From positions 51,426,250-51,490,249 of the forward strand of contig CM055895.1 in assembly GCA_029582155.1 (NCBI GenBank): DNA of 64,000 nt. The letters are read 5' to 3'. Below the pieces are notes generated by a model. The model made no database searches, was not told the origin of the DNA, and was given only the letters and a program-made list of their open reading frames with translations. Shown here one piece after another: positions 13,301-57,757 of the stretch (positions are counted from its first letter, which is position 1; each line of letters begins with the position of its first letter). Both the position numbers and the translations under genes were made by a program. This stretch comes from Panopea generosa. Its lineage: Eukaryota; Mollusca; Bivalvia; Adapedonta; Hiatellidae.

Positions 13301-13838
13301 GCATTATATTTCAGTAGTGATTACAATATAGTAAAGGTTCTCTTAATTTGGAAAGTGTAAGCCTTCCACTTTGAGATGGTCAAAGACTTGAAATTCATTC
13401 TAGAAATAACACTTGGCTTCCATTTCAACTCTATTTTTAATTACAGATGTAGATACTTAACACTTTAAATATAAGTAAAGCTTCCAGGTGATATAATATT
13501 TTTAGACTGGTTCCAGTACAACTGCATGTCAACAGGTCTGTAACCTGGGTTGTCAAACCTTTAAGTATCTAAGCAAATGTTAGTGAAACAGAATCCTGGG
13601 TTGCGATTTATAAAATCTAGATTACAATAAAAATCACCAAAAGTCAATTTGACAATGTTCAAATTTTGATTGGCGTTTAAAATGATTGTATTTCCAGAAA
13701 ATATTTACAATTTTCTGCATGATTTAAGCCAACTTTGGTTCATTTGGATCAACACTAAAAATATTATGAATAAGTGTTTACAAAAACTTTCATCGCAAGT
13801 TGTTTTGTGAAACGCGCCCCTGGCCAATATAGTCTTAC
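10331..13838. other. Intronic DNA, nothing recognised
   Basis: AT-rich intron of the FBXW10-like gene. I see no exon, tandem array or dispersed family here apart from short homopolymers. Confidence 0.4.
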
Positions 13839-14296
13839 CTGCATAAGCATCACTTCCTCCCACAGTTGTTGGTTCACATAGAAGTCCCTATGTACTTCCT
13901 CCACCAGTATACGCCAGTATGAACTCACACACAGGGCGTTCATCAGAGACGACTTGTCCAGCATGCTTAAAATCATCTTGGAAATATGCACCGGCAGACG
14001 GCGTATGATGTCCCGGAACTTGGCCACTCCAGCATATGCCTTTGCCGATGTTGGTATGACCATGTACGCCGGGTCCATGGAGCTCTCACTGGCCCACTCG
14101 GAATACTCCTCATCTCCTGCATCATTCTCAATGATGTCTCCAAGGTCTTGGGGGAACTCCTTTCCAGTAAACGGGTTGATGGTGTCTTGACCATACTGTT
14201 TACTGGCATTGGAGAGAAGTTCCAGTTCCGGATGCTCTTCTGTCTTGTAGGTGTAGTTTGAACTTGCAATGGAAGCACGCTCTGTGTAAATGGCCT
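13839..14296 (-). CDS. FBXW10: FBXW10-like, exon 2 (F-box)
   Basis: Acceptor GATCTTTTAG lies at 14306-14297 and donor CAG|GTAAGA at 13839/13838. The exon begins with two bases that complete a Glu codon from exon 1, followed by 152 codons. The first half is a variable acidic linker (EEHPELELL, NDAGDEEYSEWASES). The second half is an F-box: FRDIIRRLPVHISKMILSML, then DKSSLMNALCVSSYWRILV. It retains the LP at the start of helix 1, the L-x-x-LD core and the CVS-x-WR end that contact SKP1. The trailing LWEEVMLMQ precedes the FBXW10-specific linker. Overlapping ORFs in other frames are shadows. Confidence 0.92.
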
Positions 14297-15645
14297 CTAA
14301 AAGATCAAATATATATATATATAATATAAATTACGAGTATAAATCATTAAAAATTTGGAAATACCACTAACTGATGCATGCATGAAGGAAGTTTAAAAAT
14401 GTAAGATTTAAAATACATTTCAATTGTTGTTATTTTGGTATGCCAATCATCTGTATTTTGAGGCCAAATAAGGTAAATTTTCACTCTAAATATATGGGTT
14501 TTATATAACCTCACATAGAAACACCAATCTATAAATTATTAGTATCATATAGGTATGTGTAATTATTTACATACTTTTCGTAATATGGGAGCCCTCAGTT
14601 TATATATCTAAGATTCCGTTTTAGTACCTAGCTACTTTTAAAAGGTATTTGTATGAAAATTGATGTGACAAACCACAAATTTTTCAACCTTAGCATGGTA
14701 TTTGAAATGTCTGTCTGTCCGTCCGTCTGTCTGTAAACAAACTCAGAAATGGCAATCAATATCCAACATCAGACAATGAGACAACTCTTCTGGTTGCCAA
14801 ATATACCAAGTCAACTTCAAACAAGTCCTATAAATCTAACATTCGTTCAGGAGACACTGCTTTTTAGATAATAACAAAATATTCAAGCAACCAGCAAGCA
14901 CTTCCTTAAATCAGAGATAGTTAACACCTGGTTTTCCTATTCTATTTAAGAAACCAATCTTCAATTACTTAGATTTTTTCAAGCACCCACCACCTTAATG
15001 TAAAGATTTCATCTCATTTTCATGGCATAATTAATTTTTTCCTGAAGAACTTGGGGCTAATATTTTATGTGCTCTCTATTTCAATCCTATCAGTATTACA
15101 GCTGGAAAGTAAAAGCGTAATCAATAGAACTTTTTAGATCTTACCTGAAGTTTATACATTATGGTTATTATGGATTATCTGATGGCAGATTAGAGAATTC
15201 CATTCTTTCATATTTCCTGTAACTTATATCCATATTTTTGTTGTTCAAAATAAATCAATTGATCACAATGACAAACAGCGTGTTTGGACAATAGTTACTC
15301 TTGTAGTCAATACATTTAAATGGACTGGCAAATAGTGATTAAAAACGAACATTATTGCTCATATTTAAAAAACCTCCTACTGACTGAGGTTTTTCCACAG
15401 TCGTTGTGCAATGAAAAACATATACTAAGTTCAAATAAAGTTTGTATGGGGTATTGTTTATTATATGGTCAATAAAAAAGCTGACAAAACATTAAAAGCA
15501 TTTCAATATTTGCTTTGATCTTGTAAAATGACTATTAATATTATGAAGGTCCCTACTCATTTAATGATGCAAAAATGCCCAAGAATATTCATTTATGCAA
15601 TTGCTAACATACACTAAAACACAAGACTAACAGTATATATTTGAT
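14297..15645. other. Intronic DNA with small microsatellites
   Basis: Short (AT)n at about 14308-14325 and a (GTCT/GTCC)n run at 14709-14734. Otherwise AT-rich with nothing recognised. Confidence 0.45.
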
Positions 15646-28590: not shown

Positions 28591-28837
28591 AAAATCAATT
28601 GACCTGAATGACAAGATTGTCAAGTCACATGATTATAAATGTCATGAACTTGTTTTATTCATGTAACTTGTTTATTATTCTAAGCTGCATTTGACATGAA
28701 TTCAAATTCTACAGGATATTAAGCAAACTCCACCATTTCACAACCCCAAAAGCAGGGGAGTGGGACATAATTTCGTTATAGACTAGACTAGTATAATAAA
28801 GATAAGTATTTAATGAAGAACACAGTGAATGTCTTAC

Positions 28838-29435
28838 CTTCCTGCTCCTCTGCAGCCTTAACTTCAGAAATGAGCAGTGTCTGCGCCTGTGTGCCAATTG
28901 TATGCAAGAGATGGGCGTCACACATCTGCAGAAGCACAAGCGCAAAGTTGGACTTACTCCAGTAATTTGCATCAGCAAACCAATGCCATGTTGACCCTAT
29001 AAAGTTTTCAACATCTTTCTGAGACAAGGCGCGGTCAGAACTTAGTGTTGACATATCTGTTCGCAAACTTGGATTTGTCCGACTGCGTGAGTATGTGAAG
29101 TCTTTATATAAAACTGGCTGCAATAATTTGACAACTTGCGCTAAAAGTTCAGCACTATGGGTCCTTTGCATTAGACCTAGCATAAACCTCTTGCGTGAAT
29201 GGTCGCCAAGTCGTGGAAACCATTCTTTTATATCTCGCAACTTGAAGGTCAGTTTACAAGTCTCGCATTCACTGCATGTTGTAGATTTTTCAGTGTTGAC
29301 ACATCGAAGTAGAGGCGCCTGTCCGAGGTTAAACTCGAACACCTCAATGTTGGATGCAGAATGTTTCATCATGTCTATGTCATCTGAAGAAGTGACGCTC
29401 GACACGTCACTGTATCGACACACCTCCAACATCAT
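28838..29435 (-). CDS. FBXW10: FBXW10-like, exon 1 (N-terminal region)
   Basis: Starts at ATG 29435 (a second ATG follows immediately) with an in-frame TAG nine codons upstream. It ends at GAAG|GTAAGAC, 28838/28837. It encodes 199 codons plus one base. Residues 40-95 read APLLRCVNTEKSTTCSECET, then CKLTFKLRDIKEWFPRLGDH, then SRKRFMLGLM. This matches the N-terminus of vertebrate FBXW10 (APYFRC..., CETC, KEWF, RRF). Later blocks KDFTYSRSR and WHWFADANYWSKSNFALVLL also have clear FBXW10 counterparts. The CxxC pair could bind a metal. A further untranslated exon upstream is possible. Confidence 0.9.
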
Positions 29436-30887
29436 CTTGGTTTGTGTGTGAGTCTTCTAATCTAGTGTAATTAGTCTCCTGTAATACACAAAAAGAATTT
29501 TCAATTCTAAAATTTATCACAAAGGATGAAAGATACCAAAACTTGCATTCAAAAAGTAATTTTCTTTAAAAAAAAGAACATTCCCAGGGTCCGGGGGCCC
29601 CCCCCTGCCTTTACTCTAGAGGAATTGGGCCCGAGGGCTTTCTGTGGAGTGGAATGTTTTTTCAAATTTTTGAAATTCATTGTGTTATTGATTCAAATAC
29701 AACAGCATATATATTCAACTAGTAAGAAGCACTTGTCCCTAATCTTCTTTTTTATCTTTTCTCATTTTATCCGTATATTTTTCGATCTACTTGTAAACTT
29801 TCTTGGATAAAATGTATTATACTATTCTGTCACTTTGATATCAATTGTTCGTGTATTGTAGATGTATGTATACTATAATGTTTCTGAATTGTAAAAAAAA
29901 AATTAATAAAAAGAAAAAAGAAAAAATCTATTTATTTCAATCCGCCCTGTATATTCAATTGAACAGTGAGTTTTATAAGAATTTTAAACTTTCTTTAATT
30001 GAGTCCTCCACCATGGTTATGTGTGGTGAGTTGTCCTTTAGCAAGTCGCTATGACGTATGCGTATATTTAATACTCAGGTACTACACAAGAAGATTTCAA
30101 GTTATTTGTCTCAGAAGAACAAGTCACAATGGAAAAAAAACAGACAAAATTAAAAACAAACCTGTGAGAATTCCTACTTAAATAAAGTTTTAGCCATCAC
30201 TGAAAAATAATTACAAGTTCTTAATGAGAAACCTGGTGCAACAAGCATTACCGCAAAACTTTCCTCACATTCTCAATTATTTATCAACTACAATTTTATA
30301 TAACATGACAATTCATATAATGTAAGGCTTAAATAGAAGTTATTGAATGTATGTCTTCAGCTGTCTTTTTAAATAAACCATGAAATTTTCAATACTCAAA
30401 ATCCAGTAAACCTGGTCATTATTTACACTATTGTGAAATAAATTTCAGATTATTATGATTTCTCAAATTTATAACAAAAAAAACAACAATCAAAATGAAT
30501 GAAATCATGATTATCAAATGCCATCAATGGAATACAATAATCATTTCTTTCTAAGTTCTTACAAAACTTTCATTAATGAATCCTGATTCAAACAATAAAA
30601 GACAAATACACACATCCATGCAGTACCAACAATCCAACTTACGCCTGTGAGAGGATAATTGTCAGACCATGGTAAATAACCATGTTTAACCATGTTTGCC
30701 AATTATGACCATGTTCAACCAGGGTATGACCATGGCCAAACCAAGTAATACCAAAAAGAAGTTAACACATAAGAACTTTAGTTACACTAAAGCAATGTAA
30801 GATCAACTTTGCATTCATCTACCTCTTGATGCCGGAGACATGGAATTCTTTCTTCAGATAATATACAAATTCAATTTCAGGTAATGC
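29436..30887. other. Region upstream of the FBXW10-like start; no clear promoter
   Basis: Should contain the FBXW10-like promoter or 5' UTR. Contains a G/C-rich patch at about 29585-29640 within AT-rich DNA, perhaps a decayed dispersed repeat. No TATA box or CCAAT pair stands out. Confidence 0.35.
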
Positions 30888-43212: not shown

Positions 43213-43384
43213 ATGTCTGGAGATGAAACAGAAGAACTGATCGTTGTTGGACAGGGTTTAATTGAAGAGCAGAATAAGTACATTGACAAGAATGTTCAAT
43301 TGTTTGAGAAGCTGAAAAACAACTATCTGGAGGTTAATCGTATGCGCAAGCTAATGCAAGACCAGGTGAAAAATGATATAGAAG
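43213..43384 (+). CDS. SPC24: SPC24, coding exon 1
   Basis: Acceptor TTTCATTTGTCCAG precedes 43210, and the start codon follows three bases later, so translation starts at the beginning of an internal exon. It encodes MSGDETEELIVVGQGLIEEQ through VNRMRKLMQDQVKNDIE. It ends with one base before donor GTATGT (43385). Human SPC24 has the same N-terminal pattern (IEEVSQGLLSLL) leading into a coiled coil. The shift from acidic start to heptad-rich Lys/Glu helices is visible from about residue 20. Confidence 0.92.
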
Positions 43385-43424
43385 GTATGTCTGTATTTGT
43401 CTGTATATCTACTTAATAATACAT

Positions 43425-43480
43425 AGCTGGGCCCAGTTAGCTTTGTCAGTAGCGCGTCTGACTGAATAGGGGTTTTTAGT
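43425..43480 (+). mobile_element. SINE family 1 head fragment in SPC24 intron 1
   Basis: GCTGGGCCCAGTTAGCTTTG then GTCTGACTGAATAGGGGTTT matches the start of family 1 (42255) and stops before box B. Confidence 0.65.
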
Positions 43481-44024
43481 TTATTCAAATGAAAAGGCCA
43501 GTGTCCAATGGGGCCTTGTTAGACACTGTTTCTTACATAGGAATACTATGGGAAAACGGGAAGGAGTCGGTTTTAATCATCTATTTTTATGGTATTGTTT
43601 TTAATTATCTTTATGTCAAGCAATGTTTAGTCATAACAGTTGATGATGGGTTCTTTTAAAGGAATTTAATATCTATTAAGGGCCAGCAGAGACCTGAAAT
43701 TGGATTTTGAATTTTCATGTCTTCATATTTGGTATACATGATCCATATGAATAGCGGTTTTAAGTTTTTCAAATAAAGGGGATAGGTTTCATTTTTACCT
43801 GGCAAGAAGACCTTGATTTTTTATGGAAATGGTAATGGAAAACAGATATTAATTTATCTTTTTCTCATATAAGTTCTTATTTTAATAAGAGGTTTTAGAT
43901 GAAATAATGTGAGCGATTTAAGCCCAGTTGGGTCTCTTGAACATTACATTTGAGATAAAACAACATATATATTAGAAATTTGTCAACAAACAATAATTCT
44001 AAACTGATTTATATTTTACTTTAG

Positions 44025-44271
44025 CTTTGCTTAATGAACATAAACAAATTGTTCAAAATCCAACAAAAAATGTTGAAGTGGAAGAGCTTACAAAACAAGA
44101 GCAACAACTCAACCAGGAATATTCTTCTGTGAAGAAAAATGTAGAAGAGTTGTCTGCCCAGTGTAAAGCTATAAAACAGACAAAGGAGAAGTTGGTAGAA
44201 GAAAAGCAGAGGCTTGCTGAAGAAAAAGAAAGACTGGATAATGAGACAACAATGATGTTGCCTAAAAAGAG
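44025..44271 (+). CDS. SPC24: SPC24, coding exon 2 (coiled coil)
   Basis: Acceptor ATTTTACTTTAG lies at 44024 and donor AG|GTAAAA at 44271/44272. The first two bases complete an Ala codon, giving EALLNEHKQIVQNPTKNVEV, parallel to the human SLLNAKEQV stretch. About 80 residues of coiled coil follow (ELTKQEQQLNQEYSSVKKNV, then KEKLVEEKQRLAEEKERLDN). ETTMMLPKKR matches the DTTVTIPS boundary between coiled coil and globular head in human SPC24. Confidence 0.95.
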
Positions 44272-45044
44272 GTAAAAATATGTAACAATTGTTTGTATGT
44301 ATTTAGATAATCTATCGGAACATTGCATTGTGGGTAACGAAATCCCACCTGAGGGTTAAAATACAGGCAAAGAACGAAGTTGTATCTTAATCTAAGAGTT
44401 GGATGTCCTGATATACAGCTCATAAGTATGTTACATTGTACTATATTTAGCTCCTTATTTGAAAGTCAAGGTCGAGCACCTTACTTCAAAAGTCAAGGTC
44501 CTTGCAGGGTGAAAAGGTTACATTTGCTTAAAACTCTGTGTTAAAGTTTTGTTGCAAGGTGTTCATAAGTGTGCATTGCTTACAGTTATATGGATCGAAG
44601 TTAGCATAAGTGTGAATGCTTATACTCTGAGGCAGTATGTAACATATTTGGCTCATAATTTAAAAGACAAGGTCATATTGTAGGATGAAATGATCGCCTT
44701 GTTTTTAAACTAAATGCTTTAATATTTTGGTGCAAATTGTGATTTACTGCGCATTATTCCAGTTATACCATATAGAACTGTACAACTTTTGGGATCAGTT
44801 TGTTATTCACCCTGGAGCCCAAACCTGTTAATATTAGGTATTTATAAATATGAACTGGTGTAAATAAATACAGCTTGATAATTTTGGCATAGATACCAGT
44901 ACAAAAATTATTTTTGGGATACACAGTGTAACTTGTATCGTTGTTAAACATTCCAGGTCCAAATTGTACCATATCTACTTGGGTACTGTCCAAGCCCAAC
45001 ATACTGTTTTCTTTCAGTTTTTGTTTTTTATGCCCCCCAAAATA
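44272..45044. other. SPC24 intron 2, left part
   Basis: Holds scattered AAGTCAAGGTC motifs (44465-44505) of the same kind as the array that follows; otherwise nothing recognised. Confidence 0.45.
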
Positions 45045-46430
45045 TTTTTGGGGTGGCATATAGTAATCACAGCGTCCTTCTGTCTGGTATTTTGTTTCCG
45101 GCCTGTATCATTGTCATGCATAGATGGATTTTGATACTTGGTAAAAATGATCAACACAACATGACGACATGTCGCGAGTAAGACCCACACCCGTACCTGA
45201 AAGGTCAAGGTCACACAATTTGAGTTTGTTTGAATACACTTGAGCCTGTGAGATTTGGTGTCCAGCCTGTAAGTTTGTCATACATAGATGGATTTTAATG
45301 ATACTTGCTACAAATGATCAACATAACATGGTGACATGTTCTGAGTAAGACCCATACCCGTAACTCAAAGGTCAAGGTCACAATTTGAGTTTGTTTGACA
45401 ACACTTTAAGTTTGTGTGAGATACTTGCTACAAATGATCAACATAACGTGACGACGTGTCACGAGTAAGACCCACACCTGTTCCTCAGAGGTCAAGGTCA
45501 CAATTTGAGTCTGTTTAACAACACTTTCAGTCTGAGATTTTGTGTCCGACCTGTAATTTTGTCATGCATAGATGGATTTTAATGATACTTGCTACAATTG
45601 ATCAACATAACATGACGGCGTGTCACGAGTAAGACCCACGCACCTACCTCAAAGGTCAAGACCACAATTTGAGTTTGACAAAACTTTGAGTCTGTTTGAG
45701 ATTTTGTGTCCAGCCTGCAACTTTGTCATGCATAGATGGATTTTTATAAATACTTGTTATAAATGATCAACATAACATGACGACGTGTTGCACTTAATAC
45801 CCAAACTCCCACTTCAAAGGTCAAGGTCAACAAGGTTAACTTTGTTTGACAACACTTTCGGTCATTTTGACATTTCCTGTCCGGTCTGTCATCTATAGAT
45901 AAATTTTGAAAACACTTGGCTCAGTTGATCAACATGACATAATTATGTGTTGCATGTAAGTCTCAGAACCTTTCCTCAAAGATCAAGGTAACACTTTCAA
46001 TTTAATTGATATTGTGTGTCTGGTCTGTGACTTTGCTTTTTACTTGGCTCATTTTATCAAGATGACAATACGACGTGTCATAAGTAAGACCTAGACCTAT
46101 ACCTCAAAGGTCAAGATCACACTTTTAGTAACAATTACAACACTTTGAATCTGTTTGAGATTTCAAGTCCGTCCTTTAACTTTATCATACATGGATGGAT
46201 TTCAAAAACACTTGGCTCAATTTACCAACAACTGATCTGTAACTTTGTCTTACATTTAGGGATTTAAAATAGCTTGACACAAGTGATCAGCATGTCATGA
46301 TGATGTTTCAGCAGCATTTAACTGTTGAAATACTCAGACCATTACTTCAGATGTCAAGGTCAAGGTTACACAAAGGTCAAGGTCACACTTTAATGTAAAA
46401 AAACATGAAATTGCATGTCTAGTCTGAAAC
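45045..46430. repeat. AGGTCA-rich degenerate repeat modules, about 8 copies
   Basis: Degenerate tandem modules with period near 165 bp (one of about 122 bp): CATGCATAGATGGATTTTAA, TGATACTTGCTACAAATGAT, CAACATAACATGACGACGTG, GAGTAAGACCCACACC, CAAAGGTCAAGGTCACAATT. AAGGTCAAGGTCA or close variants occur at about 45204, 45368, 45490, 45651, 45818, 46107 and 46352-46390. The TCAAGGTCA core is the response element of ERR/SF-1-type nuclear receptors, although abundance points to repeat origin. Such modules are common in bivalve DNA to my knowledge. Confidence 0.75.
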
Positions 46431-46734
46431 ATCAGTCCATTACTCTTTATATTCTTGGATACATCGATACCTATTATAACATAATTATATTGTTATTTTT
46501 CAATGACCATTTGGCATGCGACACTTACCAGTGACATTTCTTGTTATTATGTAAAATTCTTTCGCCATTTCAACTTTGGTACCCACTCAAGAATCACCCT
46601 CACTCCCACCCTCCCTTTTTACTCAGCCCTGTTTAAATTTTAGCACCTGCCCAATCCCCTACCCCAACCTCCTCACACACAGGTCCACCTCTCAATTTAT
46701 TTTATATTTAAATAATTATTATACCTTCAGATAC

Positions 46735-47520
46735 AAAGTATATGGGTGCTATATAGGAGTCACGCTTGTCGGTCTGTTGGTCGATCCGTCTTTGGACAAT
46801 TTTCATGATCACAATTTCTTAGCAACTATTGGATGGAATTCAATGAAACTTCAAAAGAGTGACTGGTACTTAGCCTAGTTGTGCATATTGTTGGCATGTT
46901 GCGCGAGAATAATTTTTCAATGAGTTAAGAATGCCTGTTAAGAACTTAAGAATGCCAGAATCAAATCTTCTGAAAGTTCTACAGTTATTCTACTTTAATT
47001 TGTGAAAAATCGTATTTTTTTGGGTTTCCATGCAATTATGTAAGAATGCCTGAATCATATATTTTGAAAAAAAGCAGGGGACATAAATACACTGAGTTGT
47101 TTGTTTATACATATTTTTTGTGGTCGCTATTTCTTGGCAAATATTGGTATATCGTCGGCATGCTGCGCGCAAATAATTTTTCAATGAGTTACGACCCTTT
47201 GAATTTTTCTGACATTTTTTGTGGTCGCTATTTCTCGGCAACCATTGACTGGAATTCAATGACACTTCACAAAAGTGATTGGAACCAAGCCTAGTTGTGC
47301 ATATCGTCGGCATGTTGCACTCGACTAATTTTTCAATGAGTTATGGCCCTTTGAATTTTTCAGACATTTTTTTGTGGTCGCTGTTTTTCGGCAACCATTG
47401 GCTGGAATTCAATAACACTTCACAAAAGTGATCGGTACCAAACGTAGTAGTGCATATCATCAGCATGTTTTGCTCAGTTATTTTTTTTTTATGAGTTAAG
47501 ACCCTTTGTGTGCTTAATTT
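46735..47520. repeat. Degenerate repeat, about 150-bp unit, 4 copies
   Basis: Units share CGCTATTTCTCGGCAACCAT, TGGAATTCAATGACACTTCA, CAAAAGTGATTGGAACCAAG, CCTAGTTGTGCATATCGTCG, GCATGTTGCGC and CAATGAGTTATGACCCTTTG. Copies lie near 46800, 47120, 47230 and 47375. ORFs on both strands here are shadows of the repeat. Confidence 0.8.
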
Positions 47521-48307
47521 CTTGACAGACAATATTCCTTAGCCCTAATAAAATTCAAAATTATAATAGTACCTTTCATGTGTAAAGTGTTTAACCTTCA
47601 CCTTTCTCGTGACCCCACAATGGAACATCAAACACCCACATCTGTTACTCTAATTGGTTCACTGTGTCGAAGTGGGCAGCAAAAGGGTGCATGAAAACAT
47701 ATACTTGACTCGTGTATTGCCTGAGAGAACAGCAGTTTGGTGTCGAATTACAATACAAATACAATGTAGTTTTAAAATGGTGCAAATTATGAAACTTTGC
47801 ATGGTCTCATCTTTCCATTGTGGGTACTAATCTCAGTCCGAGTTGCTCCTATTTATGTAAAATATTTGTTTTGTGATGTTTCTAAATTTGCCACATGGGC
47901 TATCTTCAACCAAGCAGATCACTTATAATATTGCAATCGGTAACGACAATACACCCAACTGATATTTACATTCTTTATTGCTTGTATATTTCCGGGTATA
48001 TTTGTTAGGGTTAAAATACATTTATTTATTTTACACACCCCCGGTTTTAATAATGGAATATCCCTCAGTACCAGTTTGGTATAAATGTACATTTTTCATG
48101 TATTTTTGAGAAATTACTTTTTACACCGGCAGCTGTTGTTTTTTATTGATTGTGTTTGTCTAGGTCATAAAATGACACATTAAAATAATGCCTTTCATAA
48201 TTATAACACATGTAACAGACATATTTATAACATATGTTACAGACATTGCTAGATCATAGTTTTAATGTAACAGATGGCTAATTCACCATTTTGTTTGTAT
48301 ATTTCAG
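47521..48307. other. SPC24 intron 2, right part
   Basis: No repeat or exon recognised before the exon 3 acceptor. Confidence 0.4.
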
Positions 48308-48384
48308 AGAAGTGTTGAGTTTGTATAATAATATTTCAAACATTCGCTGGGACTTCGAAGGTTCAAAAGACGAAATCAAAGGAT
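48308..48384 (+). CDS. SPC24: SPC24, coding exon 3
   Basis: Acceptor TTTGTATATTTCAG lies before 48308. It encodes R(E)VLSLYNNISNIRWDFE then GSKDEIKG, plus one base. It matches human YHQVSKIEWDYE...VKG, the first strands of the Spc24 globular head. The donor is GTATCCTTTT at 48385, the U12-type consensus, not the usual GTRAGT. Confidence 0.94.
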
Positions 48385-48394
48385 GTATCCTTTT
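48385..48394 (+). promoter_or_regulatory. U12-type 5' splice site of SPC24 intron 3
   Basis: GTATCCTTTT matches the minor-spliceosome donor consensus (GTATCCTTT) at every position and is far from the U2 consensus. Paired with the branch site at 53013-53019. Confidence 0.88.
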
Positions 48395-49480
48395 ATAAAG
48401 TGTATCAAACAATCACATGTTCAAAATTAATCTTATTATATCGACAGTTAATTCTGATATTGGAAAACACACCTTTCTTTGCAATGTCTAAGAATTTAAA
48501 GGGATTATATTGGCATATTACAGTCAATTCCCTGTCCTAAATACACACGCCCAGCATGAAGATACACTTATAACTTAGAGATATACGCGTCTAAAGTTTC
48601 TAATTGCATAACCTCTTTATTACAAATATCGGGTTTCTGAAGCCACATTTTTGTTTTTGTTTACATTTTGTTTAAATTCGCCATTTTCAACGAACTGCTT
48701 TCGGCTTTCCGAACATCATCGGATAACATCATGAAGACTCATTCCCGATCTCGTTTTCGAGGCTTTGTTTGGGAAGTTTACGGAGTTCAATGTAAACATT
48801 GCGCAATACTTTATTTCGGGACGTATTAAAGTTTTGACCAATTTTCAATTACTGTTAATTTGATAACTTTCAAGTAAATAAAGGTTATACGTCAATGCAT
48901 AAGCATTATTTTGTGCACACTGCATACAGGAAAAGTCTGGATTAACAGCGTGTTTGTGTTACTTGCCAATATAATCCCTTTAACAATTGGAACCAATACC
49001 TGTTGCCATGGTGATACTACCTTGAGATAATTTGATAACAAATTTGTTGACTGCTTGTGGTGTCTTAAGCAATGTTTTCTCAATGATAAATGTGTGAGAT
49101 TTGTTTCTCACATTAGCACAATATATCAGGTGCTGGCATTCATTGTCCTATTGTAAAAACTCTTTGTTGCAATAAAATGATAGATTTGAATTTTTAACAC
49201 ATGTCACTTTCAAGACTTCATGGAGACATTGACAAGGTATACTACTCTTATTGAATGTAGATTATTTTAATACATTAGTATATGAGACAAAATTTAAAAA
49301 ACATTCCATCAGCAATAAGTGTTCAGGTGGAAAAAGCTACCATTCAATTTGGAAAGGGAGATAATCTATGATTGTATACATTTAATCTATCTTCCTTATC
49401 TCCTCATCCATTTTTATCACAGTCAATATCAATTAAAACTATAAACCACCAACAACAGAACTAAGATGAACAAATACATG
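48395..49480. other. SPC24 intron 3, left part
   Basis: Contains a less AT-rich patch at about 48680-48800 (CGGCTTTCCGAACATCATCG) and a decoy exon-like stretch at 49216-49237. No supported feature. Confidence 0.45.
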
Positions 49481-49482
49481 TA

Positions 49483-50115
49483 ATGCCCTTGTATTTCATG
49501 AGCTTAGGCAGTGGTACATCTGAATATCAATCAAGGGGTTGTGAGTTTGAGTTCCCGTCTTGCCACAATCTCCTTGATGATCGATATACAACATTGCGTC
49601 TCATTCGTCTTCCACTGCTAATTCAAGTGGGAAAAAGGAATTTTTTGCTTTATTTAACAGAGGTCAACATTTGGTGGCTTCCTAATTAAAAAGTCATGTT
49701 TTTTTCTCAACTGAGGTAAAACAATTCCCAAAATGGAGATTATTTTTTTTTTATTATTTTTTTTTTTTTTACATTCAGGGACAAAAAAAAACTCCAACTG
49801 GATAAGTATCATTGTAATATCTGATAATTATTGATTAGATCATGATCTTAACAATGTTACGCTTTATTTTACGGTTCGCTAAAGCCTTTAAAAAATCCCA
49901 ATTTCCCCATGATCGCAATGTTATTTCTCTCGAAGACTTGGGCCTCTTCTGAATTTCCAGAAAAAAGGCTCTGGGAAAGTTATCAGTAACTATCTTTAAT
50001 TAGCAAAAATTGGATGTTTTCAAATACTGGTTAACATCCCAGGATCCCAGGAAAGAGTGGCTAGGTTAACTGATCATCTGTAAGCCCTGGATGCAATATA
50101 TTTAATCAATCAATC
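49483..50115 (+). mobile_element. SINE family 1 split by an insertion of about 330 bp
   Basis: The left half (49483-49636) has the box B-like TTGTGAGTTTGAGTTCCCGT, TTGATGATCGATATACAACA and AATTCAAGTGGG. The right half (49971-50115) continues with AAAGTTATCAGTAACT, ACTGGTTAACATCCCAGGAT, AACTGATCATCTGTAAGCCC and TTAATCAATCAATCG. Between them lies AT-rich unrelated DNA with poly-T runs. GGGAAA occurs at both junctions. Confidence 0.78.
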
Positions 50116-50329
50116 GAAAATGAGCAGTAAGTGGACTGTTTTCACTGGAGATATTTACAACCACCGTACATTCATCACAATTACTATAAATAGTTCAAGA
50201 ATTATATACCTGTGACATTACATGCAGTGTGTCGATGTATGTACTAATACATAGTTCTAACTCCAGAGGCATCATTGATGTATACATTATATTACATTAT
50301 GTGACTGTTATAATGATTAATTATTTCTT

Positions 50330-50645
50330 TATTGATTTATCAGTAAATCAACCTGTGAGATTCTGATTAAGAATAGAATCACTGTCGATCTCTGCAGAGG
50401 GGTAGGAAATGAATGTAATGTCTGTTTTATCATTTGTGTCATGTTCATTGTTGTGATTAAATTATCAACCCCTGTGTGGTTCAACTTCAAGGGAGCCATA
50501 TGAGTGATGTCATGAGGATCACTGTGTGTCATGCTTGTTGTAAAAAGTGACAATTTGAGTAATACTATAGATAGAATTTGCTGAAGTTCTGCAGGTATCA
50601 AAGTTATACGTTCATTCTGCATAATTATATTCATTTGACAAAATT
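50330..50645. repeat. Dispersed repeat, copy B (inverted relative to 7380-7660)
   Basis: Reverse complement of the 7381-7660 sequence over most of its length. On plus it reads KNRITVDLCRGVG, then a hydrophobic stretch, then LSTPVWF and a stop. No ATG-led intact protein and no recognised family. Confidence 0.68.
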
Positions 50646-51860
50646 GTTGATATGATTTTTAGCTTGACTATTGGGAGAATAAATAGAGCTATTCTTCTCA
50701 CCTGGGCGTCAGTGTCACACCTTCGTTAAAGTTTTGCATGCAAGTCCCTATCTCAGTAACCATTGCATGTATTGACTTGAAACTTTACACAAGCCTTCCC
50801 AGTCATTAACCCTACTACATTAACTAAGTAAGATAAATCTTGCATGAATATAATACAAATTATTACCCTTGTTTGACTTAGAATTTTTGGTTAAAGTTTT
50901 GCATACAAGAACTGTCAAATCCATATCACACCAACCACTCGATGTATTTGATTGAAACTTTACACTCGTATGGTTTTGTAGTCATGAAACCAACGAAATT
51001 AATGAAGTGGGATAGCTCTTTCTAGATTTTTTTACAAGTTAGGGCCTTATTTGACTTAAATATTTTATGACTCGGCAGTCACTGCATGTATTGGATTGAA
51101 ACTTCATACAAGATGTTGCTGTTCCTCTGACAGCTATTGTTTTAATTTGTTTGTTAATTTGTTATGCCCTCGCAATTTTCAATGTCTGTACATACAAAAA
51201 TGGTTTCCAACTTATATCTTTAGTTTTAATGAACAGATTTTAATCAAATTTGGTGTGTGACTTTACATTCAGGTAATACAGGTCAAGTTTGTATTTCATT
51301 CTGGTCTGATGATTTTTGATGGAGTTATGCCCATTTTTGGACTTATTGATTATTGGCAAATGTCAAGAAATTCAATTTGCTCGATATCTCTTGAAGGATT
51401 GGATGGATTTGATTCGTATTTGGTAGAAGATGTATGGTGGTAAACTACAGCTCAAGTTCTAGTTCAATCAAAATGCATATTAATTAGGTGTTCTGAGTTT
51501 TGGTTGGCTGATAGTTTCCGACCTCTAAATTTTTTATTTATTAACCGATTTTGACAAAAATTTATATTTGGCTCAACATTAACAGTTTGACAATGGATGG
51601 AATTGGTGTGTATTAATTAGATTATCGTAACTCTGACTGGCTGACAGTTTCCGACCTCTAAAATCTTTATTGATTGACCGATTTTGATGAAACTTGATAT
51701 TTGGCTTTATATCATCAAGACCCAGGTCAAGTTCGACAGTGGACAGAATCGGCACATATTAAGTAGGTAATCTGGACTCTGATTGGCTGACAGTTTTTGA
51801 CATCTAAAGTCTTTATTGATGGACGGATTTTAAAGAAACTTGATATTGGGCTTTATATCA
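50646..51860. repeat. Degenerate repeat modules of bivalve type
   Basis: Partly tandem modules: TTGCATGCAAG... and ATTGAAACTTTACA... (50735-51110), then about 135-bp units at 51480-51860 with GACCGATTTTGATGAAACTT, GATATTTGGCTTTATATCAT, CAGGTCAAGTTCGACAGTGG and CTGATTGGCTGACAGTTTC. The ORF at 51797-52018 starts in this repeat and looks like chance. Confidence 0.65.
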
Positions 51861-52254
51861 AAACACTGATATTTTATTTCTTTTATTTGCAGAACAAGTT
51901 CCAAATGAAAATTCATTTTGACTTAGTGTTTGTACAGGCAAAACACCAGAGGCCAATGCACACCATCTTCCTCACATATTTCTCTGACCGCAGCATAGTT
52001 GCTCTGTACTTCAATTGATTACATTCTGTTTGGTAAGATTTTCAGCTCTAAATCTTTGCACAAGTGTCTTATTTTCAACTTCATGATATGTCTGCATTGC
52101 TGTGACAACTTACTGTAGTAGAAATGGTTTTGAAATGATATCTTCAGCTTGTTTTTGATGGATTACAACCAGGTCAAAATAAAGACTTGAAATATGGTAC
52201 TAGAAGCTTCCTCACTTGGCACTCAGAATTTAGAGAAGGAAAATCTTATGTTTG

Positions 52255-52525
52255 GTAGGCCCAGTGTCAGTATGTGACTGGGTAGATTATCATGTTATGT
52301 GTCTGTGGCATGATACTCAAGTCTGTCTCAGAATATTGTCTCAAGTAGACACAATCATGATATGACTGAAAAATTTATGAAAACGACTCTAAATACCATA
52401 CAACAACACCGTATACAATTATGTATTTCATCTCATTGTATTATAGCCATAGTTTGAATCTTCACTTGTAATTTTTTAATATTTAGCATCAGGGCTAACA
52501 GACAGCTAACCTAACCATTTTTTCT
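52255..52525. mobile_element. SINE family 2 fragment (+) next to a family 1 tail (-)
   Basis: 52255-52425 matches the body and tail of family 2 in plus orientation (CATGTTATGTGTCTGTGGCA, TCTCAAGTAGACACAATCAT, GACTGAAAAATTTATGAAAA). 52485-52520 (CATCAGGGCTAACAGACAGC) is the tail of family 1 in minus orientation. Confidence 0.65.
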
Positions 52526-52570
52526 TGTGTTGAAAATGATTTCACTGCAACTTACATTTCATTTGTCATT

Positions 52571-53008
52571 TGAATAGTTGAACTACATATCTGAGAAGTT
52601 CAATTGTATATTTAAGTAGTTAAACTATATGAATATTGAATATGTTTTGAGAAGTTGAATTTTATGTTTGAATAGTTGAACTATATGTTTGAGTAGTTGA
52701 ACTATATGTTTTAGCAGTTGAACTTTATGTTTGAGTAGTTGAAGTATATGTTTGAGTAGTTGAACTATATGTTTGAGTTGTTGAACTATATGTTTGAGTA
52801 GTTGAATTTTATATTTGAGTAGTTGAACTATATGTTTTAGCAGTTGAACTATATGTTTGAGTAGTTGAACTATATGTTTTAGTAGTTGAACTATATGTTT
52901 TAGCAGTTGAACTATATGTTTTTGCAGTTGAACTATATGTTTTAACAGTTGAACTATATGTTTGAGTAGTTGAACTATATGTTTGAGTAGTTGAACTATA
53001 TGAATATG
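52571..53008. repeat. 21-bp minisatellite, about 20 units
   Basis: Units of AGTTGAACTATATGTTTGAG plus T, with AGCAGTTG and AGTAGTTG variants. The array ends within five bases of the U12 branch site of SPC24 intron 3. Confidence 0.95.
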
Positions 53009-53012
53009 TTAA

Positions 53013-53028
53013 CCTTAACTTACATCAG
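53013..53028 (+). promoter_or_regulatory. U12-type branch site and 3' splice site, SPC24 intron 3
   Basis: CCTTAAC (53013-53019) equals the U12 branch consensus core (TTCCTTAAC). It is followed after nine bases by CAG at 53028, within the short 10-16 base window typical of U12 introns. There is no polypyrimidine tract, as expected for this class. Confidence 0.88.
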
Positions 53029-53132
53029 ATATCTCCAACAAGTCAGATGTGAAGCCATTCTGTTTTGATAAGAGGAAGTGTTCCGAGTTCTACATCACCA
53101 ACTCTCTTTGGGACTCCATGAAAGAAGATTAG
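53029..53132 (+). CDS. SPC24: SPC24, coding exon 4 (C-terminus and stop)
   Basis: Two bases complete a Tyr codon from exon 3, then ISNKSDVKPFCFDKRKCSEF and YITNSLWDSMKED, stop TAG at 53130-53132. Human SPC24 ends PIHLDSTQLSRKFISDYLWS with LVDTEW, so spacing from the KG of exon 3 to the F-D motif is the same (15 residues) when exon 3 joins here directly. This confirms the splice and rejects an extra exon in between. F-x-x-x-x-LW is the conserved last helix. Confidence 0.94.
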
Positions 53133-56429: not shown

Positions 56430-57757
56430 TTGGAACACTGTAGATACCTGATATCAGATATTATCTTTAGAGTTGCTCTTATTGGTCCAGTGTGCTCCAG
56501 TAGTTGCTTGATACCACATATGATATTCGAAGTTGCTCTTATTGCCCCAGTGTGCTCCAGTAGATGCCTGATACCAGATACTATCTTCAAAGTTACTCTT
56601 ATTGTTCCAGTGTGATCAAGTAGTTGCCTGATACCAGATACTATTTTCAAAGTGGCTCTTATTGCCCAGGTGTGCTCCAGTAGTTGCTTGATACCAGATA
56701 CTATCTTCAAAGTTGCTTTTATTGCCCTGGTGTGCTCCAATAGTTGCCTCATACCGGATACTATCTTCAAAGTCGTCTTATTGGCCCAGTGTGCTCCAGT
56801 AGTTGCTTGATACCAGATACTATCTTCAAAGTTGCTCTTATTGCCCCAGTGTGCTCCAGTAGTTGCCTGATACCAGATAGGATATTCAAAGTTGCTCTTA
56901 TTGCCCCGGTGTGCTCCAGTAGTTGCCTGATACCAGATAGGATATTCAAAGTTGCTCTTATTGCCCCGGTGTGCTCCAGTAGTTGCCTGATACCAGATAG
57001 GATATTCAAAGTTGCTCTTATTGTCCTAGTGTGCTCCAGTAATTGCTTGATACCAGATAATATCTTCAAAGTTGCTCTTATTGCCACGGTGTGCTCCAGT
57101 AGTTGCCTGATACCAGATAATATCTTCAAATTTGCTCTTATTGCCCCGTTGTGCTCCAGTAGTTGCCTGATACCATATACGATATTCAAAGTTGCTCTTA
57201 TTGCCCAGATGTGCTCCAGATGTTGCCTGATACCAGATACTATCTTCAAAGTTTCTCTTATTGCCCCAATGTGCTCCAGTAGTTGCCTGATACCAGATAC
57301 TATCTTCAAATTTGCTCTTATTGCTCCGATGTGCTCCAGTAGTTGCCTGATACCATATACAATATTTAAAGTTGCTCTTATTGCCCCAATGTGCTCCAGT
57401 AGTTGCCTGATACCAGATACTATCTTCAAATTTGCTCTTATTGCTCTGATGTGCTCCAGTAGTTGCCTGATACCATAAACAATATTCAAAGTTGCTCTTA
57501 TTGCCCCGATGTGCTCCAGTAGTTGCCTGATACCAGATAGGATATTCAAAGTTGCTCTTTTTGCCCCGGTGTGCTCCAGTAGTTGCCTGATACCAGATAG
57601 GATATTCAAAGTTGCTCTTATTGCCCCGGTGTGCTCCAGTAGTTGCCTGATACCATATACGATATTCAAAGTTGCTCTTATTGCCCCGATGTGCTCCAGT
57701 AGTTGCCTGATACCAGATACTTTCTTCAAATTTGCTCTTATTGCTCTGGTGTGCTCC
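56430..57757. repeat. 60-bp minisatellite, about 22 units
   Basis: Unit of 60 bp: GTGCTCCAGTAGTTGCCTGA, TACCAGATACTATCTTCAAA, GTTGCTCTTATTGCCCCGGT. Two sub-variants alternate (ACTATCTTC and AGGATATTC). Period divisible by three and scarcity of stop triplets give long ORFs on both strands (20-residue repeats CSSSCLIPD.IFKVALIAPV and IRQLLEHTGAIRATL.I.SG). Neither has a gene context, codon bias or a recognised family, so none is called. Confidence 0.96.

Follow-up and report, generated by a model that had tools for sequence, protein, structure and literature searches.

The window analysed here, the whole stretch of 64,000 nt from the bivalve Panopea generosa, carries a four-exon gene on its forward strand, whose exons join to a protein of 199 residues (Table 1). 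Judged by its protein, this gene is SPC24 of the Ndc80 kinetochore complex, as a sequence-only reading of the window had called it. The Pfam family Spc24 matches the 199-residue protein with E=1e-11 and 45.4 bits (cut-off 25.3), and human SPC24 (8ppr_F) aligns to it with E=3.8e-12, the alignment running gap-free through the place where exons 3 and 4 meet. All of the remaining 24 Pfam families listed for the protein stay below their own cut-offs, the nearest being HBM (29.6 vs 29.8). When the 1.47-Gb genome was searched with the protein, eight matches were obtained at E up to 10, of which four are strong and correspond to the SPC24 exons; the best match beyond them has E=2.35, and no intronless retrocopy with a joined junction was found in this genome. 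Upon scanning viral contigs with the exon 3-4 peptide, 17 stretches fitted the pattern, none of which was confirmed as a relative. We consider it extremely improbable that the locus is a pseudogene, or that the gene model is wrong and the junction described below goes unused, with the four exons standing in order, the frame intact over 199 codons and this being the single SPC24 locus found in the genome.

Table 1. Features of the SPC24 locus, in window positions
Feature	Position	Strand	Length	Basis
SPC24 gene	43213-53132	+		four exons joining to a 199-residue protein
Exon 1, coding part (MSGDETEEL...)	43213..43384	+	172 nt	open frame, donor GTATGT, exon-wise match in own genome
Intron 1, U2-type by its sites (AAG/GTATGT ... 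TTTACTTTAG)	43385..44024	+	640 nt	U1/U11 pairing
Exon 2, probable coiled coil	44025..44271	+	247 nt	frame test, match in own genome
Intron 2, U2-type by its sites (GAG/GTAAAA ... TATATTTCAG)	44272..48307	+	4,036 nt	U1/U11 pairing
Exon 3 (...NIRWDFEGSKDEIKG-)	48308..48384	+	77 nt	frame, Pfam, human SPC24 alignment, match in own genome
Intron 3, phase 1, putative U12-type GT-AG	48385..53028	+	4,644 nt	motifs, frame, Pfam fit, pairing
Putative U12-type 5' splice site GTATCCTTTT	48385-48394	+		motif, rarity, U11 and U6atac pairing
21-bp tandem repeat (minisatellite), 21 copies, 84% matches	52569..53002	+		10 bp between its end and the branch motif
Putative U12-type branch site CCTTAAC	53013-53019	+		motif, candidate branch A 53017 or 53018, U12 pairing
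3' splice site CAG	53026..53028	+		motif, frame
Exon 4 with stop (-YISNKSDVKPFCFDKRKCSEFYITNSLWDSMKED)	53029..53132	+	104 nt	frame, Pfam, human alignment, match in own genome

Splice signals of the third intron

U12-type introns have the 5' splice site consensus RTATCCTTT and the branch site consensus (TT)CCTTRAC, the latter lying near the 3' splice site. We observe that intron 3 opens at 48385 with GTATCCTTT(T), an exact match to the first of these, and closes with CCTTAAC followed by TTACATCAG up to 53028, that is, CCTTAAC-TTACAT-CAG. The sequence-only reading had described CCTTAAC, nine bases and CAG; both motifs hold, but its spacing does not, as the CAG is itself part of the nine bases, which leaves six in between. 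The CCTTAAC core is exact, and AA precedes it instead of TT, which gives 7/9 of the longer branch consensus. The best branch nonamers near the ends of introns 1 and 2 reach 6/9 (21 nt away) and 5/9, so that the score of intron 3 beats the best chance nonamer of intron 1 by one only, a point that counts against a U12 assignment. U12-type introns typically show no distinct polypyrimidine tract; here pyrimidine content between -20 and -4 separates the introns little, at 0.65 in intron 3, branch motif included, and 0.71 in each of the other two. The AA before the core and the minisatellite so close upstream of it are the two features in which intron 3 is unlike U12-type introns in general. The 5' splice site, the branch core and the short branch-to-acceptor distance, on the other hand, are common to it and to U12-type GT-AG introns as a passage of PMC3584512 describes them. 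The two candidate branch adenosines, 53017 and 53018, lie 11 and 10 nt from the final base of the intron and 12 and 11 nt from the first exon base, and the optimum distance given in the same passage is 11-13 nt (PMC3584512). These three features support, at sequence level, the U12 class that had been proposed for the intron.

Upon counting base pairs between the three donors and the U1 sequence and U11 core, we found that U1 pairs with 7/9 positions in intron 1, 6/9 in intron 2 and 4/9 in intron 3, and that the U11 core pairs with 1/6 plus two G-U in intron 1, 1/6 in intron 2 and 5/6 plus one G-U in intron 3. Introns 1 and 2 of SPC24 therefore look U2-type.

The exon 3/4 junction

Joining 48384 to 53029 yields ...KG-Y-ISNK..., in which one base of exon 3 and two bases of exon 4 make up the codon TAT for Tyr, just as the sequence-only reading had it. 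The frame running onward from exon 3 hits a stop at 48396, and the frame running backward from exon 4 hits one at 53016, within the branch motif; because of this in-frame TAA (53016-53018), an acceptor upstream of the branch motif is barred from direct in-frame entry to exon 4. Two GT donors were combined with six AG acceptors (53028 to 53074), and the frame remained open to the C-terminal stop in 4/12 combinations. The earlier view that the frame closes only at this junction was thus right about the closing and wrong about the "only", although this junction has the best Pfam fit of those that keep the frame. The three alternatives use GT 48361 and/or AG 53046 and lose 6, 8 or 14 residues. For full-length proteins the Pfam Spc24 scores are 45.4 bits (48385/53028), 36.7 (48361/53028), 33.7 (48385/53046) and 23.2 (48361/53046), which puts the first ahead by 8.7 bits, with two of the three alternatives also above the cut-off; for exon 3+4 fragments they are 31.7, 24.9, 23.7 and 19.9 bits in the same order, and only the first exceeds 25.3. 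On frame and Pfam fit, 48384/53029 is the best of the frame-keeping junctions, though others are possible, and the gapless alignment with human SPC24 speaks against an extra small exon inside intron 3.

U2-type splicing is the default for GT-AG termini, and two of the three alternatives pass the Pfam cut-off in full length, both of which favour a reading in which the major (U2) spliceosome removes intron 3, whether at this junction or close to it, the U12-like motifs being leftovers or products of chance. Motifs of this kind do occur singly by chance, and the donor motif or the branch motif taken alone is unremarkable. In the window RTATCCTTT occurs four times against 1.8 expected and CCTTRAC-N7-AG twice against 0.6 expected, and for each motif 10/100 shuffles reach as many. 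Across the 1.47-Gb genome GTATCCTTTT is found 3,714 times (1,825+1,889), and the reversed control pattern is commoner (2,290+2,286, 4,576). No convincing exon precedes any of the three other RTATCCTTT sites in the window (12256 and 22821 on the minus strand, 55173 on the plus strand).

It is the coincidence of donor and branch motif at a fitting exon junction, and not either motif alone, because of which chance is exceeded. The two strands of the window together contain 7,377 GTs, and the donor of intron 3 is the only one that continues as GTATCCT. CCTTRAC precedes 17 of the 6,754 AGs with a branch distance between 8 and 15 nt, the acceptor of intron 3, at 10, being one of them. With rates of 5.2e-5 per GT and of 9.1e-4 (Markov) to 2.5e-3 (window count) per AG, and with two donors and two frame-keeping acceptors, such a coincidence would be expected with a probability of about 2e-7 to 5e-7. 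Against splicing by the major spliceosome stand this figure, the poor U1 and good U11 pairing of the donor, and the residues lost and lower Pfam scores at the alternative junctions, and we judge such splicing very unlikely, if less so than a pseudogene or a wrong gene model.

Minor-spliceosome RNAs and the predicted splicing route

Genes for U11, U12 and U6atac, minor-spliceosome RNAs that could act on such an intron, are present in the genome. Above the Rfam cut-offs we found two matches for U11 (81.7 and 80.4 bits), two for U12 (111.6 and 110.1 bits) and three for U6atac, of which two are strong (93.7 and 89.8 bits); the three families had no match in 14 control genomes of unspecified kinds. 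Pairing with the genome's own U11, U12 and U6atac letters is given as raw counts, to which no chance level is attached: both U11 matches can pair with the donor of intron 3 over 8 nt, counting one G-U, the donor's positions +2 to +9 form 7/8 pairs with AAAGGAGA of two U6atac matches, and CCTTAC, with one A bulged, forms 6/6 pairs with GTAAGG of both U12 matches, while the unbulged branch nonamer does no better than 6/9 against U12, and at another place. The third and weak U6atac match, L011 (G000:C10:9919218-9919345, minus strand; 38.7 bits), lacks the donor-pairing AAAGGAGA and is probably a pseudogene.

Taken together, the signals, the frame and the available pairing partners lead us to a probability of about 95% that the third intron of SPC24 is a minor (U12-type) GT-AG intron removed at 48384/53029, and that full-length SPC24 would thus depend on the minor spliceosome. 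In the proposed route U11 would recognise the donor by base pairing and U12 would do so at the branch site; U6atac would next displace U11 from the donor, and excision of the intron would follow at this junction. Were the intron retained, translation would read only four codons past exon 3 before a stop (...KG-CILL-stop), and exon 4 with its 34 residues would be missing from the protein, which is why full-length SPC24 would need the minor spliceosome.

Mammalian SPC24 and the surrounding sequence

Alternative splicing has been described for Spc24 and other minor-intron genes in a study that is reportedly one of mouse cortex. The genes are given there as having roles in mitosis, as stated in a passage of that study (PMC8034651), and a passage of PMC6865273 places SPC24 among human minor-intron genes and in the core essential set for cycling cells. 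Mammalian SPC24 is the same gene and is named as containing a minor intron, a likeness at gene level, and to that extent these passages (PMC6865273, PMC8034651) answer positively, for mammals, the question that the sequence-only reading had left open, namely whether vertebrate SPC24 has this intron as U12. In PMC6865273, as far as the passage goes, SPC24 is assigned to the genes "younger" than the eukaryotes' last common ancestor; this dating follows gene orthology (eggNOG) and not intron position. A U12 intron in an SPC24 ortholog of another lineage supplies a codon position by which the intron itself may be dated. In P. generosa the intron is in phase 1 and follows the residues that correspond to human MVKG, where the human protein aligns without a gap. 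We lean towards the view that a phase 1 minor intron at this codon predates the split from vertebrates and was kept as U12-type in both lineages, in which case the dependence of Ndc80 on the minor spliceosome would be an old, retained animal trait.

As a minor intron in SPC24 was already reported in mammals, the observation is sound but mostly expected; what it adds is one further species with a clean SPC24 U12 example and a comparable position, since the passages cited above already connect mammalian SPC24 with the minor spliceosome. Because a passage of PMC10639083 already reports that minor introns are relatively enriched in Mollusca, the finding alone changes little, and a further passage of that paper argues against cell-cycle regulation as a general cause of minor-intron persistence.

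Several other features of the window were observed. There are 36 AGs in the minisatellite of intron 3, of which TTTTAGCAG accounts for three, and the TAA of the branch motif keeps every one of them from entering exon 4 directly in frame; the repeat itself probably has no role. A 60-bp tandem repeat spans 56440-57757 in 22 copies, and several of its frames are open on both strands, which results in long repeat ORFs. On the minus strand, an exon-like open frame at 13767-14330 encodes an F-box, which scores 26.8 bits for Pfam F-box-like against a cut-off of 24.3, and belongs to a neighbouring gene, of which a long open frame at 28791-29456, also on the minus strand, may at a guess be a further part.
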